Positions 1,973 through 10,959 of a stretch of DNA of 10,959 bases are shown here, piece by piece. A model generated the notes under the pieces. It was not told the origin of the DNA. It saw only the letters and a program-made list of their open reading frames with translations, and did not search any database. The stretch is taken from assembly GCA_013153765.1 (NCBI GenBank), contig JAADDT010000115.1, forward strand, positions 1-10,959, in the 5' to 3' direction. Source of the DNA: Aquificota bacterium. Lineage in GTDB: Bacteria; Aquificota; Aquificia; Aquificales; Hydrogenothermaceae. Each line of letters opens with the position of its first letter. The first letter of the stretch is position 1. A program made the position numbers and the translations under genes.

Positions 1973-3499
1973 ATGAAAAAAATTTTCCTATCGGCACTGG
2001 CAGGACTGTTAATATCCCTATCCTTTCCCAATACGTTCCTGCCGTTTGTTTATCTGGGGGGATTTTTCATTCTTTTTATGCAGGTTGAAAGGGCAAAAAA
2101 CTACAGGGAGGCTTTCCTTCAGGTTTTTACAGCCGGCTTTACCTTTACGGTGTTTTCCTTTTACTGGATAGTTTTTGCCACCAGCTACTACGGTGATGTT
2201 AGCCTTCCCGTTTCTGCCCTTATGCTGGTCGTCTTTTCTGCCGTCTTTTCCCTTTTCCAGTTCGTCCCTTTTGGAACAGCCCTTTATTTTTTAAGGAAAC
2301 TAAAATACTACCTGTTTCTGGCTCCGTTCCTGTGGACAGCCCTTGAGGTGTTGAGGGAGTTTTTCCCTTTTACCGGCTTTCCGTGGAACCTGCTGGGCTA
2401 CACACTGTCTTACATAAATCCGGTGGCACAGGTCGTTTCTTTCGGCAGTGTTTATTCCCTTTCCTTTTTAGCGGTTTTCTTCGCCGTGGCTATGTACCTG
2501 TTTTACAGGGACAGGACGCCAGCCTCCGCAGGTCTGGTTCTGTTTTCCATTTTGCTTTTTGCAGGACTGTTTGTATGGGGAAAGGGAAGGATAGGGGACT
2601 ACAGGGACAGTGGAATACCGAAAAACATAGCCGTTATACAGGGCAACATTACGGAGGACGTTAAGCTTGACGAAAGCAGTCGCCTTGACGTGATTGCCAA
2701 ATATTTAAGCCTGATTAAAAAAGCGTCTGAATATCCGGTTGACCTTATAATACTTCCCGAGTCTGCCGTTCCGGTCTATCCACTGCTTGAGCCTGCGGAC
2801 GTTTACCAGCTTTACTTTTTTGATAGGCTAAAGGAAGTGAAAAAACCTTTACTGGCAGGATTTGACAACCTGTTTTACGAAGGGGAGGAGCTTTACCTTT
2901 ACAACTCCGTTTTTCTTATAGACGAGAACGGAAAGCCGGTTGATTACTACAGTAAGATAAAACTCGTCCCGTTTGGCGAGTACGTCCCTTCACCTTTCGG
3001 CTTTTTAAGGAAGCTTTTTCCCTATCTGGAGGGATACGACTTTTTTGCAGGTAAGGAAAAGAAGGTTTTAAAATACAGGGAGTTTAAGATAGTCCCTCTT
3101 GTCTGTTTTGAAGCCATATTTCCCGTTTTCGTAGGGGAGTTTTCAAGGAGGGGAAACCTGATAGTGAACATTACCAATGACGCTTGGTTTGGCAGAACTT
3201 CCGCACCGTTCCAGCACTTTGAGATGGCAAGAGTAAGGGCTATAGAAAACAACAGGTACCTTGTAAGGGCGGCGAACACAGGCATTTCCGCCGTAATAAA
3301 CCCTGTAGGCAAGCCTGTCTCCACCCTTAACCTGTTTGAGGAAGGTATTATTCTGGACAGGGTTTACCTGATAGAGGAAAACTCGTTCTGGAACAGCCAC
3401 TACCCTCTCGTGGCACTGGTTTTCTTCCTGTCCTTTCTCCTTACACTGGGAACTGTCCTTTTCCTAAACCTCCGCAAACCTGTCCATAAAACGGTATAA
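1973..3499 (+). CDS. lnt: Apolipoprotein N-acyltransferase
   Basis: Lnt adds the third acyl chain to the N-terminal cysteine of lipoproteins in the inner membrane, using phospholipid as donor. The 508-residue protein has the usual size and layout: about six hydrophobic membrane segments in residues 1-205, a periplasmic nitrilase-like domain in about 217-470, and a last membrane helix near 478-500. The catalytic triad is visible as Glu263 (LPESAVP), Lys328 (YSKIKLVPFGEYVP) and Cys378 (PLVCFEAIFP). The family signature ITNDAWFG (400-407) and the following HFEMARVRAIENNRYLVRAANTG are intact. ATG at 1973 begins a typical MKKIF membrane start. The 3' end overlaps the convergent amidotransferase gene by 36 bases. 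Its likely clients include the lipoprotein encoded at 342-1613. Confidence 0.95.
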   Translation: MKKIFLSALAGLLISLSFPNTFLPFVYLGGFFILFMQVERAKNYREAFLQVFTAGFTFTVFSFYWIVFATSYYGDVSLPVSALMLVVFSAVFSLFQFVPFGTALYFLRKLKYYLFLAPFLWTALEVLREFFPFTGFPWNLLGYTLSYINPVAQVVSFGSVYSLSFLAVFFAVAMYLFYRDRTPASAGLVLFSILLFAGLFVWGKGRIGDYRDSGIPKNIAVIQGNITEDVKLDESSRLDVIAKYLSLIKKASEYPVDLIILPESAVPVYPLLEPADVYQLYFFDRLKEVKKPLLAGFDNLFYEGEELYLYNSVFLIDENGKPVDYYSKIKLVPFGEYVPSPFGFLRKLFPYLEGYDFFAGKEKKVLKYREFKIVPLVCFEAIFPVFVGEFSRRGNLIVNITNDAWFGRTSAPFQHFEMARVRAIENNRYLVRAANTGISAVINPVGKPVSTLNLFEEGIILDRVYLIEENSFWNSHYPLVALVFFLSFLLTLGTVLFLNLRKPVHKTV

Positions 3500-4162
3500 A
3501 AGCTCCATTATCCGGCGGAAGTTTTCCGTTTCTGACAGTATTTCCTCCGGCTTTTGTATGTACCTGCCGTCTTCCATTAATTCCTGAACGGAGTTTTCAA
3601 TGAGAGCCTGTGCGGAGGGCAGGTCTGTCTCAAGGTGGAACTGTAGTCCAATCACCTTCCCGCCGTTGTACTCAAACGCCTGATTGGTGCAGGCTTCACT
3701 GGAGGCCGTATGTACCGCTCCAGCCGGTATCTCAAAGGTATCGCCGTGCCAGTGGAAGGGGACAAAGCTTTCAGGCAGTACGGAAAAAATCCCAGACCTT
3801 TTCCCTTCCTCAGTCAGGTTTACGGGAAACCAGCCTATCTCCTTTTCCCTGTTTTTGTAAACCTTTCCTCCCAGAACATCGGCTATCAGCTGTGCTCCGA
3901 GGCAGATGCCCAGAACCTTTTTGTTTTCCTTTATGGCTTTTTCTATGTATTTTTTTTCCTCCTTCAGCCAGCTAAATTTGTCGTCGTCGTAAACGCCCAT
4001 AGGTCCTCCCATCACCACCAGCATGTCAAAACTGTCCGTCTGGGGAAGTTTTTCTCCCAAAAACAGCCTCGTTCCCGTTATGGAATGGTTCCTTTCTTCA
4101 GCCCACCTGTATATGTTTGCAGGCGTTTCAAAATAGACGTGCTGTATGTAGTGTATCCTCAT
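3464..4162 (-). CDS. GMP synthase-like class I glutamine amidotransferase
   Basis: This 232-residue stand-alone GATase domain would hydrolyse glutamine to glutamate and ammonia. The triad is complete: nucleophile Cys87 in GICLGAQL, and His176 with Glu178 in LQFHLETD. The oxyanion region MGGPMGVYDDD (51-61) and the HWHGDTFEIP segment (137-146) are those of the GMP-synthase-like (COG0518) branch, not of TrpG or carbamoyl-phosphate synthase. No synthetase domain is attached, so the acceptor of the ammonia is unknown. The start overlaps the stop of the TrpD2-like gene as ATGA, with GGAGG just upstream, which indicates an operon and probably coupled translation. The last 36 bases overlap the convergent end of lnt. 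Its place beside the nitrate genes suggests a role in nitrogen metabolism or glutamine sensing (inference). Confidence 0.87.
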   Translation of the reverse strand: MRIHYIQHVYFETPANIYRWAEERNHSITGTRLFLGEKLPQTDSFDMLVVMGGPMGVYDDDKFSWLKEEKKYIEKAIKENKKVLGICLGAQLIADVLGGKVYKNREKEIGWFPVNLTEEGKRSGIFSVLPESFVPFHWHGDTFEIPAGAVHTASSEACTNQAFEYNGGKVIGLQFHLETDLPSAQALIENSVQELMEDGRYIQKPEEILSETENFRRIMELLYRFMDRFAEV

Positions 4163-5166
4163 AACACCTCCCTCTCGGTTATTTCTGCGTACTTTTTAAA
4201 CTTTTCGTAAGCTTTGCCGGAATGTAGAGCCTCCCTGCCCATTTCCACAGCTTCCGGCAAACTGTCGTAAAGACCGTAAGCCACCATAAGTATTCCTGCC
4301 GTCAAAAGGGCAAATTCCTCAAGCTGTCTGTCTTTTCCCTGTAGCAGATCAAGGCAAAGCCTTCCGTTTTCCTCCGCAGTTATTCTCCTTAAAACGGCGT
4401 TTTTATCAATGCCTTCAGGATATACCACCGTTTCCCTGCCGTTGAAAAAAACCTTCGTTTCGTGGTTAGGGAAAGGTTCAACACCACCTTCAAGGCTTTT
4501 GAAAACGGTTATCTTTTCCATTCCCACGTACCTTGCAAGTTCGGTGTATTTCTGAATGTACGGAAGATGGGACACGCCTGTTATCACCCTGTCCGTTCTG
4601 AAAGGATTTAGCATTCTTTCCATCGTATTGTGGTAAGTCCTTAAACCGAACTCCCTCCTTTTTTCCATCAGGTTGAACAATTTTTGTGCAAATAAGCTCT
4701 GATGGGCAAAACCAAAACCTGTCTCCGTCAGAGCTTTTACCACAGTTTCCTTTTTTGCAGGCGTTTTTGCTCCCATCTTCTCAAGAACCTGATGGTACGT
4801 AATTCCGTATTTTGAAGGGACTTTCTCCGCACCGTGTCCGGAAAGGTAAACTCCACAGCTTGTAGCTATGAATATGGACGCCGGAAGGATGTGGACAGAC
4901 CTGTCTTTCCCGTCGTAGTTTACCGCAAGGTCAAGTGGTTTTACAGGCAGGTCTATAAAATCCATATACTCCCTGTGTGCGTCAATAAAACCTTTCAACT
5001 CATTTATAGACGCGTACTTTATCCTTTCGGCAGACCAGAAAGCACCTGTTTGCAGGTCTGTTGCCCTGCCGTCTATTATGCTTTTTTCCGCCGTGTAAGC
5101 CTCCTCCTGCGTAAGGTCTTTAAACCTTTTCTTTCCCGCACCGACCTTTTTCAAGAACTGGAGCAT
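4159..5166 (-). CDS. TrpD2/CnaT-like protein (anthranilate phosphoribosyltransferase fold), divergent from nirA
   Basis: The 335-residue protein has the TrpD architecture: a helical N-terminal domain (about 1-72, with LTQEEAYTAEKSIIDG) and a phosphoribosyltransferase-like domain (about 75-325). Where TrpD has the PRPP-binding GTGGD loop this protein has NYDGKDR (83-89), followed by LPASIFIATSCGVYLSGHGAEK; RTYHNTMERMLNPFR (176-190) replaces the GxRTxFNxLGPLxNP segment. These changes place it with TrpD2/YbiB and CnaT proteins rather than tryptophan enzymes. E. coli YbiB binds nucleic acids, and CnaT of Anabaena is needed for expression of the nitrate (nir) operon; I recall both as published findings. 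A regulatory role at the divergent nirA operon is therefore inferred. A GTG at 5187 would add seven residues, but AAAGGAG lies inside that extension, 8 bases from the ATG at 5166. It ends in an ATGA overlap with the amidotransferase gene. Confidence 0.85.
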   Translation of the reverse strand: MLQFLKKVGAGKKRFKDLTQEEAYTAEKSIIDGRATDLQTGAFWSAERIKYASINELKGFIDAHREYMDFIDLPVKPLDLAVNYDGKDRSVHILPASIFIATSCGVYLSGHGAEKVPSKYGITYHQVLEKMGAKTPAKKETVVKALTETGFGFAHQSLFAQKLFNLMEKRREFGLRTYHNTMERMLNPFRTDRVITGVSHLPYIQKYTELARYVGMEKITVFKSLEGGVEPFPNHETKVFFNGRETVVYPEGIDKNAVLRRITAEENGRLCLDLLQGKDRQLEEFALLTAGILMVAYGLYDSLPEAVEMGREALHSGKAYEKFKKYAEITEREVL

Positions 5167-5174
5167 TCCCTTTT

Positions 5175-5181
5175 CTCCTTT
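5175..5181 (-). promoter_or_regulatory. Shine-Dalgarno of the TrpD2-like gene, decides the start
   Basis: Minus-strand AAAGGAG is spaced 8 bases from the ATG at 5166. Because it would be inside the coding sequence if translation began at the GTG at 5187, it argues for the shorter protein. Confidence 0.65.
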
Positions 5182-5211
5182 GCACACTTTTTGTGAAAAA
5201 AACCTTTACAG

Positions 5212-5300: not shown

Positions 5301-5312
5301 AAGCAGGTGGAA

Positions 5313-7217
5313 ATGGAAAAACTGGTAAGGATTAGCGAGGAGAAAAACAGGAAGCTTAACAAGATAGAGCTTTTGAAACAGGAGCATTCTTTTAAGGAGG
5401 CCTGGGAAAAGCTTGAATACTACGCAGAAAAGGGCTTTTCCTCAATACCGGAGCACGACCTTAACTACTTTTTAAAATGCTTCGGCATATTCTACAGACC
5501 TGCCACGCCGGAACGGTTTATGCTGAGAGTAAGGATACCGGGGGGCAGGCTTAACCACGTTCAGGCTGTAAAGATAGGAGAGCTGGCAAAAAAGTACGGC
5601 AACGACTACATAGACCTTACGACCAGAATGCAGGTAGAACTCCGGTACCTGCGGATAGAGGACATACCGGTAGTATTGAGGGAGCTTGAAAGCGTAGGAA
5701 TTACCACATTCCAGACAGGTGTTGACAACTTCAGGAACATTGTTCAGGACCCTTTAGACGGACTTGCATTTGACAGCGTCATATCCACCTGGGACATACT
5801 CCAGCAGATACAGGAAATATTCCTTAAAAAGGAAGAATGGATATGCAGTCTGCCCCGTAAGTTTAACATCTCCATAACAGGTAGCTACTCAAACAGGTGC
5901 AACGCTTACGGACACGATGCCTGTTTCATACTTGCTGAAAAGGACGGAATATTTGGCTTCAACGTTTTCCTCGGCGGAAAGGTTGGAGCCGTTGCTAAGC
6001 CTGCCGATGTGTTCCTTCTGGGGGACCAGGTCCCCCCTTTTTTTAAAGCGTTAGCCACAGTTTTCAAAAAGTACGGCTTTAAACACTCAAGGAACAAAAA
6101 CAGGCTTAAATACCTGATAGATGAAGTAGGTATGGAAGAGATAATAAAAGCGGTTGAAATAGAAGGAGGAAGGGGATACGGAAGTGGGGGAACGACCCTC
6201 ACTCCCATTCAGGGGGGAGATAAAACAGATAAAGTCCAGCTTAAGGACGGGACTTTTGCCGTGCATACGGTAGTCCCGTCCGGTATTTTTTCCGGGACGG
6301 GGATGGTAGAAGCTGGTGAACTCTGCCGGGAATACGGCGGGGGAGAGTTGAGGCTTACGGTGGAACAGAACTTTTACATTGTAGGCGTTCCTGAAGAAAG
6401 GATAGGTAGCCTGCTTTCTGAAAACCTTTTTAAAAAATACAAAAACAAAACCTCCATATTCTTTTCGGACCTTGTTGCCTGTGCAGGGACGGAACACTGT
6501 CCCTTTGGAGTTATACCTAACAAGCCCGATGCCATTAGAGTGGCAGACTACCTTACAGCTGAGTTCCCAGACGCTTCCGGAAAAATAAGGATGTACTGGT
6601 CTGCCTGCCAGAAAGGTTGTGGAATACACGGTCTTGGGGATATTGGCTTTATGGGAGTAAAGTTCAGGAAAGACGGGCAGGCTGTTTTGGGCGTTGACAT
6701 ACACTACGGCGGGACTATGACAGGGGAAAGTGGGGAGGGGAAACTGCTGATAAAAAACGTTTCCCTTGATCAGGTTCATCTCCACGTCAGGGAGATAGTA
6801 AGGGAATACCAGAGGCTAATGAAGAAAAACGAAAGCTTTGAGGAGTTTTACAGGAGAGTTTTAACAAGACTGTCAAAAGAGGCTGTAAGGTTTCTGGTTT
6901 TTTTCAACCTGCTTATGGAAAAAAAAGGCTGGGATTTACGGCTTGAGATAAACGACAGCGTTTTGTGTAAGTCTTCCGAAGAGGAGGAGATTTTCGGATA
7001 CGGATACCAGATTTACAGAAAACTGGTAGGAAGACCTCCCTATTCCAGACCTTCCATTTTAGAGATTTACGACCAGCCGGAGCCGGAAAAACCGTCAAGG
7101 CTGGGGATAAATGTTGAAAAGGACTTTGAAAAGGTTCTTATGAAAATGATAACCAAAAAACCTGAAAAAAGGTACAGAGTTTTCACCGAAGTGGAGCAGG
7201 ATTTAGAAAGCATATAG
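5313..7217 (+). CDS. nirA: Ferredoxin-type assimilatory nitrite reductase (sirohaem/[4Fe-4S])
   Basis: NirA reduces nitrite to ammonium with six electrons from ferredoxin, in the cytoplasm. The 634-residue protein has the duplicated nitrite/sulphite reductase layout: ferredoxin-like half-domain about 58-130 (LTTRMQVELR with Arg105 as a likely sirohaem/substrate contact), catalytic domain about 135-285, second half-domain about 312-372, second catalytic domain about 382-510. The sirohaem-[4Fe-4S] cysteines are Cys390 and Cys396 (ACAGTEHC) and Cys432 and Cys436 (SACQKGC). There is no FAD/NAD part, so it is not NirB. A further 125 residues at the C-terminus are beyond the usual end near 510 and are not recognised. 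An in-frame GTG at 5307 is possible, but AGGTGG overlaps it and sits just before the ATG at 5313. It is first in an operon with the transporter and narB. Assimilatory sulphite reductase is a less likely alternative, given these neighbours. Confidence 0.9.
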   Translation: MEKLVRISEEKNRKLNKIELLKQEHSFKEAWEKLEYYAEKGFSSIPEHDLNYFLKCFGIFYRPATPERFMLRVRIPGGRLNHVQAVKIGELAKKYGNDYIDLTTRMQVELRYLRIEDIPVVLRELESVGITTFQTGVDNFRNIVQDPLDGLAFDSVISTWDILQQIQEIFLKKEEWICSLPRKFNISITGSYSNRCNAYGHDACFILAEKDGIFGFNVFLGGKVGAVAKPADVFLLGDQVPPFFKALATVFKKYGFKHSRNKNRLKYLIDEVGMEEIIKAVEIEGGRGYGSGGTTLTPIQGGDKTDKVQLKDGTFAVHTVVPSGIFSGTGMVEAGELCREYGGGELRLTVEQNFYIVGVPEERIGSLLSENLFKKYKNKTSIFFSDLVACAGTEHCPFGVIPNKPDAIRVADYLTAEFPDASGKIRMYWSACQKGCGIHGLGDIGFMGVKFRKDGQAVLGVDIHYGGTMTGESGEGKLLIKNVSLDQVHLHVREIVREYQRLMKKNESFEEFYRRVLTRLSKEAVRFLVFFNLLMEKKGWDLRLEINDSVLCKSSEEEEIFGYGYQIYRKLVGRPPYSRPSILEIYDQPEPEKPSRLGINVEKDFEKVLMKMITKKPEKRYRVFTEVEQDLESI

Positions 7218-7230: not shown

Positions 7231-8547
7231 ATGAAGGTTAAAGACCATCAGGTAAAGGGCAGTCCGGCTTTAGGTCTGGCTATGGCTACCTTTGGCTTTT
7301 TTATAGGATTTGCGGCTGTTTCCCTTTACGGACCTGTGGCAAAAAACCTGAAGGAAATACTGGGACTTTCAGGCGTTTTACTCGGTCTGCTTGTTGCCGC
7401 ACCGAACCTTACCGGTTCACTCTTAAGAATACCCTTTGCCGCTTGGGTTGACAAGGTAGGCGGTAAAATACCACTTGCCACCCTTTTAATACTGTCCGTT
7501 ATAGGAATGGCAGGTCTTTCAACACTCCTTTACCTGTATTACCCTAACCTTGAGCCTTGGATGTACTGGCTTATCCTGTTTTTCGGATTTTTAAGCGGTT
7601 GTGGAATAGCCACTTTTTCCGTCGGCATAGCCCAGACCGCATACTGGTTTCCTGAAAGCAAACAGGGATTTGCCCTCGGCGTCTATGCAGGCGTTGGAAA
7701 CCTTGCACCGGGCATCTTCGGACTTTTACTGCCGTTTGCCCTGAAGGAGATAGGACTTACAATGTCCTATATACTGTGGTTTGGATTTTTACTGATTGGA
7801 ACGGTTATTTACATAATCTTTGCAAAGGACGCACCTTACTTCCAGCTTATAAAAGCCGGCTTTCCAAGGGACGTGGCAATAAGGAAGGCAAGGGAGCTGG
7901 GACAGGAGCTTATCCCTACAGGAAGTCTTATAGAATCCCTGAAAAACTCCGCAAGACACATAGAGACGTGGGCTCTGGTAGCCCTTTATTTCACCTCTTT
8001 TGGGGGCTTTTTAGCCCTTACAGGCTGGTTCATAGTTTTCTGGGTTGAGAGCTACGATATGGAGGTAAGACACGCAGGACTGCTTATGGCCTTCGGCTTT
8101 TCACTGCTTGCTTCCGTTATCAGAATATTCGGAGGCTGGCTGTCTGACAAAATCGGTGGAGAGCTTGTATCAATAATGGCTTTCTTTACCATACTGGTCG
8201 GGGCGGTAATAGTAATACTGGGGGGAAATACTGCCTTCTCCGTATCCCTTACAGGTGAGGTGCTGATGGGAGCAGGTATGGGAATAGCAAACGGTGCCGT
8301 TTTCAAGCTTGTTCCAAAGTACGTTCCTCACGCCACAGGTGGAGCCGCCGGCTGGGTCGGAGGTCTGGGGGCTTTCGGCGGTTTTGTGGTTCCTCCTATT
8401 TTAGGTCTGTTCGTCCAGAATTACGGTGTTGTGGGATACTCAAAAGGCTTTATCGTTTACGTTATCCTTTCAATGATGGCAATAATCATATCAGCCCTGC
8501 TCTGGAAAGCTTACGGCAGGGAGATAAACAAACCTATAGAGGAGTAA
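7231..8547 (+). CDS. Nitrate/nitrite transporter, MFS superfamily NNP family (NarK/NrtP/NasA type)
   Basis: The 438-residue protein is almost wholly hydrophobic with about 12 membrane helices, the normal size for a major facilitator. The nitrate-nitrite porter signatures are present twice: GVYAGVGNLAPGIFG (150-164) in helix 5 and GGAAGWVGGLGAFGGF (370-385) in helix 11. Arg66 (LLRIPFAAW, helix 2) and Arg298 (VIRIFGGWLSDKIGG, helix 8) match the two arginines that bind the substrate anion in NarK. The MFS loop motif follows each, as DKVGGK and DKIGG. It would bring nitrate (and possibly nitrite) across the inner membrane for NarB. It lies between nirA (13 bases away) and narB (4 bases away), which indicates an assimilatory rather than a respiratory role. 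Symport or exchange cannot be told from the sequence. Confidence 0.92.
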   Translation: MKVKDHQVKGSPALGLAMATFGFFIGFAAVSLYGPVAKNLKEILGLSGVLLGLLVAAPNLTGSLLRIPFAAWVDKVGGKIPLATLLILSVIGMAGLSTLLYLYYPNLEPWMYWLILFFGFLSGCGIATFSVGIAQTAYWFPESKQGFALGVYAGVGNLAPGIFGLLLPFALKEIGLTMSYILWFGFLLIGTVIYIIFAKDAPYFQLIKAGFPRDVAIRKARELGQELIPTGSLIESLKNSARHIETWALVALYFTSFGGFLALTGWFIVFWVESYDMEVRHAGLLMAFGFSLLASVIRIFGGWLSDKIGGELVSIMAFFTILVGAVIVILGGNTAFSVSLTGEVLMGAGMGIANGAVFKLVPKYVPHATGGAAGWVGGLGAFGGFVVPPILGLFVQNYGVVGYSKGFIVYVILSMMAIIISALLWKAYGREINKPIEE

Positions 8548-8551
8548 TGTG

Positions 8552-10959
8552 ATGGAAGAGGTGCTGGCGAAAGCCCAGTGTCCTTACTGTGGAGTTGGTT
8601 GCGGTTTAGAAATATTTAAGGATAAAAAAGGCAGAATAAAAATAAGGGGAGACAAGTCCCATCCTGCGACAAAGGGAGACCTGTGCCTAAAACCTATCCC
8701 TTACCCGAAGGTTATGGACATAGGCAGAGTTCCCTCTCCACTTTATCGGGAAAACAAGAAAGACCAGTTCAGGCAGATAAGCTGGGAGGAGGCGGTAAGG
8801 ATAATAGCCGAAAAACTAAAGGAAAACAGACCTGACGAAAACTACTTTTACATATCCGGACAGCTTACCACAGAAGACAGTTATGTAATAAACAAGTTTG
8901 TAAAAGGCTTCGTAAAAACGAACAACATAGACGCAAACTCAAGGCTGTGTATGGCTTCGGCGGTGATGGGCTACAAACTGTCCTTCGGTTCTGACGGTCC
9001 TCCTGCAAGCTACGAGGACATAGACGACGCAGACGGATTCGTTTTTGCCGGTTCAAACGCCAGCTGGACCCATCCGGTTCTTTTCAAAAGAGTTTTAAAC
9101 AGGAAAAAGGAATACCCTGAAGCGAAAATAGTCGTGATAGACCCTGTCTATACAGCCACCGCAGAAAAATCCGATTTATGGATAGATATAAGACCGGGGA
9201 CTGATACGGTTCTTTTTAACAGCGTTTTATACCTGCTTCACAAAAAAGGCTGGATAGATCAGGATTTTATAAAAAACCACACGGAAGGCTTTGATGAAGC
9301 TTTAAAGGAAGCGGAAAAATACCCTCCCGAAGTTGCCTCAAAAATATGCGGTATAAAGGAAGCAAAAATATACCGGCTTACGGAAATTTACGCCTTCAGT
9401 AAAAAAGTCCTTTCCTTCTGGACGATGGGATTTAACCAGTCCTCAAACGGCACGATGAAAAACCTCTCCCTGATAAACGTCCATTTAGCCACCGGCAGGA
9501 TAAACGAAAGGGGCAGTCCATTTTCCCTTACGGGACAGCCTAACGCAATGGGAGGTAGGGAAGTGGGCTATCTGGTAAACGGTCTTCCCGGATACAGGGA
9601 CGTTAGGAACAAAGAAGACCGGCTATTTATGGAAAGGTTCTGGAACATTCCTGAAGGGAGCATAAGGGAAAAGCCCGGTCTTACGGTGGTTGAGGCTGTA
9701 GAGCCTATGATAAACGGGGATATTAAACTGGTATGGATAGTCTGTACGAACCCTGCCGTTACGATGCCTAACCTGAACAGGTTTTGGAAGGCTTTAAGGA
9801 ACAGTTTTGTAATAGTTCAGGACGCATACCTTACCGATACTGTGGATTACGCAAACCTCGTCCTGCCTGCAACCCAATGGGGGGAAAAGGAAGGCGTTAT
9901 GACCGGTTCTGACAGGACTATCACACACAACAAACCCTTTGCCAGTCCACCTTCCCAGTGTAAACACGACTGGGAAATATTCTGTATGGTGGCAAAACAG
10001 CTTGGCTGGGGGGACAGTTTTTCTTACACCAGCCCTGAAGAGATATTTAACGAGTATAAAAAAACCACAGAAGGAAGGCTTTGCGACATATCCGATTGGA
10101 GCTACGCAGACCTGCCTAAAAAATGGGGAGGAAAGTGGCTTTATCCGGACAAAAAGTTTTCCACACCCTCCGGAAAGGCAAAGTTCAACCCTGCGGTGTA
10201 TGAAGAGCCTGCTGATAAGACGGAGTATCCTTATTCCATAGCCCTTACAACAGGCAGGACTAAAAAGCAGTGGCACACCATGACCAGAACAGGTAAGGCA
10301 CACGAGCTTTTGAGGGGAGAGGCTGAGCCTTTTATACTCCTTAACGAGGAAGACGCCTTTGAGCTGGGCATATTTGATAACGACTACATTAACGTCCGTT
10401 CCACCAGAGGACAGATATACGTTAAAGCCAAGCTGGGGAAGATAAAAAGGGGCGTGGCTTTCTCACCTTTCGGCTACGGAAAAATTTACCACTTTCCTAC
10501 GAACATACTGGTATCAGACACTTTAGACCCTATTTCAAAAGAGCCTGAGCTGAAATTTTCCGCCATATTTATAAAGCCTAAGAAAAAGAGAATTTACAGG
10601 CTTTCTGAGGAGGTTTATAACGCGGTAAAGGAAACTTACCCTGTAGTAAAAAACTTCCTTGAAGATGCTGTGGAAAGGGGATACAGGGAGATTTCGTTAG
10701 ACGGCATCGGGAAAATAGAAGGTGAGGTTTTGGAAGAGCTTACGGAAAAAACGGCAGAGCTGATAGACATATTCGTAAACAGACCTGCCGATTGGGAAAG
10801 GGCTACGATGCTTAACGACAGGATAGCCCGCATTTACATAAAACTTAAGTTCCAGCCTCACCACCAGCAGTCAATAAGTGCCTCCTTCGGCAGGGGAGTA
10901 AGGGAGATTTTTGACCTGCCGGAGGAGACGGTAAAGGCTTGGGAATACACTTACGACTT
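8552..10959 (+). CDS. narB: Assimilatory nitrate reductase, molybdopterin catalytic subunit, with a C-terminal extension (3' truncated by window)
   Basis: NarB reduces nitrate to nitrite in the cytoplasm at a Mo-bis-MGD centre. The frame is open from ATG 8552 to the last base (802 complete codons). The N-terminal [4Fe-4S] motif is Cys10, Cys13, Cys17 and Cys45 (CPYCGVGC ... DLCLK). Cys133 in SRLCMASAVMGYK is the likely Mo ligand, followed by SFGSDGPPASYED, which is typical of NarB/NasA/NapA. The molybdopterin-binding domains run to about residue 678, with the dinucleotide-binding C-terminal part at about 560-675 (LTTGRTKKQWHTMTRTG). There is no Tat signal and no NADH or flavin part, so ferredoxin is the probable donor. 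Instead of ending there, the protein continues into a globin-like domain, described separately. GAGGAG just before the transporter stop, 7 bases from the ATG, is the ribosome binding site. Confidence 0.92.
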   Translation, partial: MEEVLAKAQCPYCGVGCGLEIFKDKKGRIKIRGDKSHPATKGDLCLKPIPYPKVMDIGRVPSPLYRENKKDQFRQISWEEAVRIIAEKLKENRPDENYFYISGQLTTEDSYVINKFVKGFVKTNNIDANSRLCMASAVMGYKLSFGSDGPPASYEDIDDADGFVFAGSNASWTHPVLFKRVLNRKKEYPEAKIVVIDPVYTATAEKSDLWIDIRPGTDTVLFNSVLYLLHKKGWIDQDFIKNHTEGFDEALKEAEKYPPEVASKICGIKEAKIYRLTEIYAFSKKVLSFWTMGFNQSSNGTMKNLSLINVHLATGRINERGSPFSLTGQPNAMGGREVGYLVNGLPGYRDVRNKEDRLFMERFWNIPEGSIREKPGLTVVEAVEPMINGDIKLVWIVCTNPAVTMPNLNRFWKALRNSFVIVQDAYLTDTVDYANLVLPATQWGEKEGVMTGSDRTITHNKPFASPPSQCKHDWEIFCMVAKQLGWGDSFSYTSPEEIFNEYKKTTEGRLCDISDWSYADLPKKWGGKWLYPDKKFSTPSGKAKFNPAVYEEPADKTEYPYSIALTTGRTKKQWHTMTRTGKAHELLRGEAEPFILLNEEDAFELGIFDNDYINVRSTRGQIYVKAKLGKIKRGVAFSPFGYGKIYHFPTNILVSDTLDPISKEPELKFSAIFIKPKKKRIYRLSEEVYNAVKETYPVVKNFLEDAVERGYREISLDGIGKIEGEVLEELTEKTAELIDIFVNRPADWERATMLNDRIARIYIKLKFQPHHQQSISASFGRGVREIFDLPEETVKAWEYTYD
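10589..10957 (+). other. Putative globin-coupled-sensor-like domain at the C-terminus of NarB
   Basis: Residues 680-802 of the narB product follow the end of the molybdoenzyme fold without a stop. They are predicted helical. RIARIYIKLKFQPHH (757-771) resembles the proximal-helix region of HemAT/protoglobin-type sensor globins, where the pattern is RIAxxHxRIGLxPxW. Upstream, LSEEVYNAVKETYPVV (684-699) and the helix ending LIDIFVNRPADWE (737-749) fit the A and E-to-F helices of the same family, as recalled from memory. The haem-ligating histidine is replaced by Tyr762. The domain may bind haem through tyrosine or may be a haem-free signalling or structural domain. The call rests on a by-eye comparison and is tentative. 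No independent start codon with a ribosome binding site was found for it as a separate gene. Confidence 0.5.

Follow-up and report, generated by a model that had tools for sequence, protein, structure and literature searches.

In Bradyrhizobium, the single-domain haemoglobin Bjgb is encoded within narK-bjgb-flp-nasC, tied to an assimilatory nitrate reductase, and is assigned to nitric oxide (NO) detoxification (PMC4724949). In raphidophytes, a haemoglobin domain is found inside the assimilatory nitrate reductase itself (NR2-2/2HbN), for which an NO dioxygenase function has been proposed (PMC9837059, PMC3820574). Furthermore, the N-domains of RsbR and MabR are described as non-haem globin folds attached to another module (PMC6614362, PMC11617747). 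Here, a stretch of DNA from an Aquificota bacterium (family Hydrogenothermaceae, hot-vent bacteria) was analyzed, in which narB, the gene of an assimilatory nitrate reductase, continues into a globin domain. The stretch, referred to as the window, comprises 10,959 bases and is the entire contig C113 of a genome bin of 1.01 Mb that is 70% complete. The best sequence relatives of its domain were two single-domain haemoglobins, the Aquifex aeolicus thermoglobin (7dih) and the Campylobacter Cgb (2wy4).

Bjgb shares with the window the tie between haemoglobin and nitrate reductase, but it is a separate gene with a separate flavoprotein, whereas the NarB globin is fused. In NR2-2/2HbN, the enzyme is a NAD(P)H nitrate reductase of eukaryotic type and the globin a truncated HbN, in contrast to the bacterial-type molybdoenzyme and flavohaemoglobin-type globin of the window; since both the enzyme and the globin types differ, we infer that the two hybrids had independent origins. 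RsbR and MabR are signalling and transcription-factor proteins, whereas NarB is a redox enzyme.

The frame of narB (8549..10957, + strand; GTG at 8549, ATG at 8552) remained open up to the end of the window, which is also the end of the contig. Its molybdoenzyme core (8549..10576, +) was recognized by matches to Fe4S4, molybdopterin and dinucleotide-binding domains, and the match to the molybdopterin-dinucleotide domain stopped at residue 669. The frame thus runs past the enzyme to the window edge, as an earlier note on this DNA, made from the sequence alone, had observed. The remainder is a globin-type domain of the flavohaemoglobin/thermoglobin kind (10601..10957, +), which the end of the contig truncates within helix H. 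As the window ends within this domain and the bin is incomplete, an assembly or binning artefact was considered, but it can practically be dismissed: narB ran into the domain in 28 other genomes, including assemblies of 2-5 contigs, and therefore the globin tail is real. A stop codon dividing narB from a separate sensor gene, the error-revealing arrangement proposed in the earlier note, had a counterpart only outside the family, as a separate globin gene elsewhere in the cluster. When NarB lengths were compared as that note had suggested, the relatives' frames measured 821-838 amino acids (aa), domain included, where no contig end or stop cut them.

The fusion is common in the family (Hydrogenothermaceae/Persephonella), being present in 29 of the 41 family genomes examined, with some of the fused copies interrupted by contig ends. 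Two genomes of the same family, G019 and G020, had a narB without the globin domain. At least 14 loci with the fusion (L068-L081), in records titled Persephonella, Hydrogenothermus, Hydrogenothermaceae or only Aquificota, were counted among the best 80 of 415 confirmed relatives in an alignment (A1) that included the conserved end of NarB; fusions among the other relatives could be missed. When 136 Aquificota genomes were searched with the domain of one class of fused globins (class A, see below), all matches inside narB frames fell in the window's family; this search covered the phylum, and the fusion may also occur beyond it. A search of the genome contigs in which only the window's domain served as query found no relative. 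In the literature searched, which covered few subscription papers, none of the titles and abstract openings described a fusion of NarB and a globin in Aquificota, and the queries that came closest to this subject returned no papers. Another kind of NarB fusion was seen in Bacteroidota relatives (L085-L145, e.g., L087:6030-9566), many of them of about 1150-1230 aa, whose extra C-terminal part ends, by reading, in a BFD-like Cys-rich stretch.

The 127 residues of the window's domain alone matched thermoglobin 7dih with E = 7.4e-5 (177,635 sequences searched), and a 15-row profile of the domain matched it at E = 2.4e-26. Homology to flavohaemoglobins and single-domain haemoglobins (thermoglobin, Cgb, Vgb) was detected for 13 of the 15 members (4e-4 for L068), and a helical globin fold was predicted for the domain, rather than the non-globin structure that the earlier note had named as the contrary outcome. 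That note had assigned the domain to the globin-coupled sensors of the protoglobin/HemAT kind, perhaps with an output domain past the window. PF11563 did match four of the 15 aligned relatives (best 9e-6), but PF00042 matched nine (best 3.1e-15), and the window's domain gave no PF11563 match at E ≤ 1, versus 4.3e-33 for the control, a genuine globin sensor found in the same phylum (G077). Moreover, the NarB of relatives terminates after the globin: the domain is about 145 residues long, and in the 12 relatives of the window's class (class B) with a readable stop the protein ended 19-31 residues past the point where the window's copy, whose own end is missing, is cut. A globin-coupled sensor with a further output domain is hence very improbable. 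Judged by homology, the parentage of the domain is that of the flavohaemoglobins and single-domain haemoglobins; the globin with its Tyr motif recognized in the earlier note was real, but the motif is a flavohaemoglobin F helix and not a protoglobin one. The G077 protein (L217), from another family of the phylum, is a 690-aa globin-coupled sensor in which a protoglobin domain (Pfam) is followed, by reading, by GGDEF/EAL-like sequence.

The helix names used below, and the triad of His F8, Tyr G5 and Glu H23, are those of flavohaemoglobins. The fused globins fell into three classes, A, B and C, with seven, 14 and eight genomes, respectively. All seven class-A globins had F8 His, CD1 Phe, B10 Tyr, G5 Tyr and H23 Glu, and F8 was also His in the ten separate globins aligned (residue 82 of the G065 thermoglobin frame). 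In the window, the codon aligned with F8 encodes Tyr (10835..10837, +; Tyr762 counted from the ATG, 763 from the GTG), as the earlier note had noticed, and Tyr occupied this position in all 13 readable class-B copies, the window included. G5 was Gln (10865..10867, +) in 12 of these 13 and Tyr in 10/10 separate and 7/7 class-A globins. A Glu (10718..10720, +) aligned with CD1 Phe, which was present in 0/13 class-B copies; the CD region is shortened and gapped in the alignment, which makes the CD1 call less certain in classes B and C. The B10 position of the window is Tyr (10682..10684, +), class B having Tyr in five, Phe in five and Leu in three of 13. H23, which falls beyond the window's end, was Val in 12/12, and the helix-H Trp (10940..10942, +) was kept in all 38 aligned globins (10 separate, 28 fused). 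In class C, F8 was Phe in six copies and Tyr in two, CD1 Phe and H23 Glu were both found in 0/8, and B10 Tyr and G5 Tyr were retained in 8/8. The G065 frame encodes its thermoglobin as a protein on its own, with His at F8, Phe at CD1, Tyr at G5 and Glu at H23, whereas the window's copy is fused and belongs to a class without them.

Since the proximal His, the Tyr and Glu that partner it, and the CD1 Phe are all replaced, the domain of the window's lineage most likely no longer binds haem; a haem-free class B is favoured with somewhat better than even confidence. A haem-free globin-like module was among the proposals of the earlier note, whereas no positive support was found for its suggestion that the window's copy senses a gas or redox ligand. 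Ferric haem can, on the other side, be ligated by Tyr, and haemoglobin variants with a proximal His-to-Tyr change are a model for tyrosinate-ligated haem. The class-B globin would then still carry haem through a proximal tyrosinate and give NarB a ferric centre that responds to NO or to redox state. This is compatible with the invariance of the F8 Tyr, as expected of a ligand, with the aromatic residue at B10 in 10 of 13 copies and with the predicted globin fold. It was nevertheless judged quite unlikely, given the loss of CD1 Phe and H23 Glu, that of G5 Tyr in 12/13, the shortened CD region and the non-ligating Phe at F8 in six of the eight members of the parallel class C. By analogy with RsbR and MabR, class B may instead have become a haem-free module.

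The evolution of the domain was compared with that of the enzyme core. The slope of domain against core distance was 2.54 in class A (21 pairs), 3.52 in class B (78 pairs) and 4.33 in class C (28 pairs), which indicated that the domain evolves with more freedom than the enzyme does, and most so without haem ligands. The ratio of nonsynonymous to synonymous substitution rates (dN/dS) of the class-B domain was 0.095-0.37 in the nine usable of the 12 pairs listed, compared with up to 0.48 in class C and 0.02-0.03 in the closest class-A pairs, many of the dS values being saturated. As the values stayed below 1, the domain is still constrained, and by this measure class B is under purifying selection, looser than in class A.

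The faster evolution relative to the core, the disappearance of the haem signature from two classes and an in-frame TGA in G001 would also fit a decaying relic, merely tolerated and without present function. G001, the fourteenth class-B genome, was left out of the residue counts; the TGA of its narB (loci L010, L235) lies within the globin domain, ahead of F8, and the enzyme core is intact. On account of the faster evolution and of this TGA, partial dispensability of the domain is possible. A relic is unlikely, however, considering that dN/dS was below 1 in all nine usable class-B pairs listed, that the domain is whole in the 12 other class-B relatives (the window's copy being cut by the contig), and that residues specific to the class have been kept (E709, W749 and Y763 in 13/13 and Q773 in 12/13, numbered from the GTG).

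A tree of 37 NarB cores, built with a quick method and SH-aLRT supports, placed the 29 fused NarBs in one clade (97) and class B in one clade (100); the remaining A/C forks were poorly resolved, and G020 fell among the NarBs of a neighbouring family (f2). In the globin tree, the fused domains formed one clade (98), apart from the ten separate globins, with long stems to class B (1.87) and class C (1.44) and a long G062. Under either tree, it is simplest to assume that a haem-binding globin was fused a single time and that its ligands then disappeared on at least two occasions. The fusion to the NarB C-terminus thus probably has a single origin, in the common ancestor of most Hydrogenothermaceae, and two or more losses of the haem ligands are probable.

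The separate globin gene found outside the family looks ancestral. In the f2 family, a separate thermoglobin-type gene was clustered with narB, a transporter and two further open reading frames (ORFs), one nirA-related and one PII-like, in all five genomes in which such a gene was found (G043, G045, G058, G065 and G088); PII and cyanate lyase were confirmed by Pfam in G065 only. The globin frame of G065, located in this nitrate-assimilation cluster, was identical to 7dih over the residues compared except for Tyr/Phe 29, and 7dih is titled as a Y29F mutant. PF00042 gave no match in any of the 14 class-B genomes. Hemerythrin, Rrf2 regulator and cupin genes directly adjoined narB-globin in L181:8495-9718 (G006) and L226 (G013), and a similar trio flanked the separate thermoglobin-type gene of G014 (L228).

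At the right end of the window, narB forms part of a nitrate-assimilation operon. It is preceded by a nirA-like nitrite reductase (5307..7217, +; NIR_SIR 4Fe-4S domain PF01077, 1.2e-36; ferredoxin-like half domain PF03460, 1.6e-32) and by a nitrate/nitrite transporter of the NarK/NrtP type within the major facilitator superfamily (7231..8547, +), named by reading and context and included in a BLAST cluster of 17 ORFs. Both functions thus stand alongside, as in NarB/NasC operons, the transporter by reading, and nirA-related ORFs were also located near narB in relatives. The curated nitrate reductase models matched the window's narB, but below their cut-offs, and so did the highest-scoring model, TIGR01591 for formate dehydrogenase (496 of 666 bits); NF047855 reached 437 of 1100 bits. 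The name narB therefore rests on context. Divergent beside nirA, on the - strand (3464-5187), lie two genes, one TrpD-like (glycosyltransferase family 3) and one for a glutamine amidotransferase of class I; relatives of the former recurred in the nitrate neighbourhoods examined (12 ORFs, the window's included) and in G065.

According to the best explanation, the end of NarB descends from a thermoglobin-like single-domain haemoglobin that is a separate nitrate-cluster gene in some other Aquificota. Once fused, the ancestral globin probably bound haem and handled NO from nitrate and nitrite reduction, perhaps with electrons from ferredoxin via NarB. In the window's lineage, where the alignment shows the haem-pocket residues replaced, the domain would have been kept folded as a haem-free accessory module under selection, which would either dock ferredoxin, PII or nitrite reductase as a partner or help to steady or regulate NarB. 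This last step is the least certain and, taken alone, is rather doubtful; the explanation as a whole is favoured with moderate confidence.

Besides the invariant F8 Tyr, the rapid domain evolution, the saturated dS values and the G001 stop, several observations weigh against it. The AF2 alignment behind the fold prediction contained class-A and class-C rows. On the core tree class B grouped with the class-A pair G025/G031 (96), contradicting the globin tree, which set B outside A plus C (83) with a warning from the tool that long branches meet. The link between globin and nitrate cluster is not universal, because three of the six f2 clusters examined (G037, G049 and G059) had no globin; furthermore, no nitrate gene was found within the 6-10 kb examined around the separate globins of the window's own family (5/5; G014, G024, G025, G030 and G034).

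Taken together, the best reading is that of a nitrate reductase fused to a probably NO-handling globin, which turned into a haem-free accessory module in the window's lineage; its present job, probably something other than gas binding, is the conjectural part. Gene context and fusion link the thermoglobins of Aquificota to nitrate assimilation, and NarB-globin is a bacterial counterpart of the raphidophyte nitrate reductase-haemoglobin hybrid. The fusion of a globin to an enzyme is already a known kind, and it is the repeated loss of haem ligands that gives this case its interest. Tentatively, a haemoglobin was captured by a redox enzyme, made haem-free at least twice in one family and retained for control of the enzyme or for docking, with a newly conserved pocket (F8 Tyr, G5 Gln and the class-specific Glu and Trp) that may sense a small ligand other than haem or recognize a partner from nitrogen metabolism. 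The family and its neighbours offer a natural series, from a separate haem-type globin through a fused haem-type globin to a fused globin without haem ligands, which lets the step from a gas-binding to a non-haem globin be tested on one enzyme.
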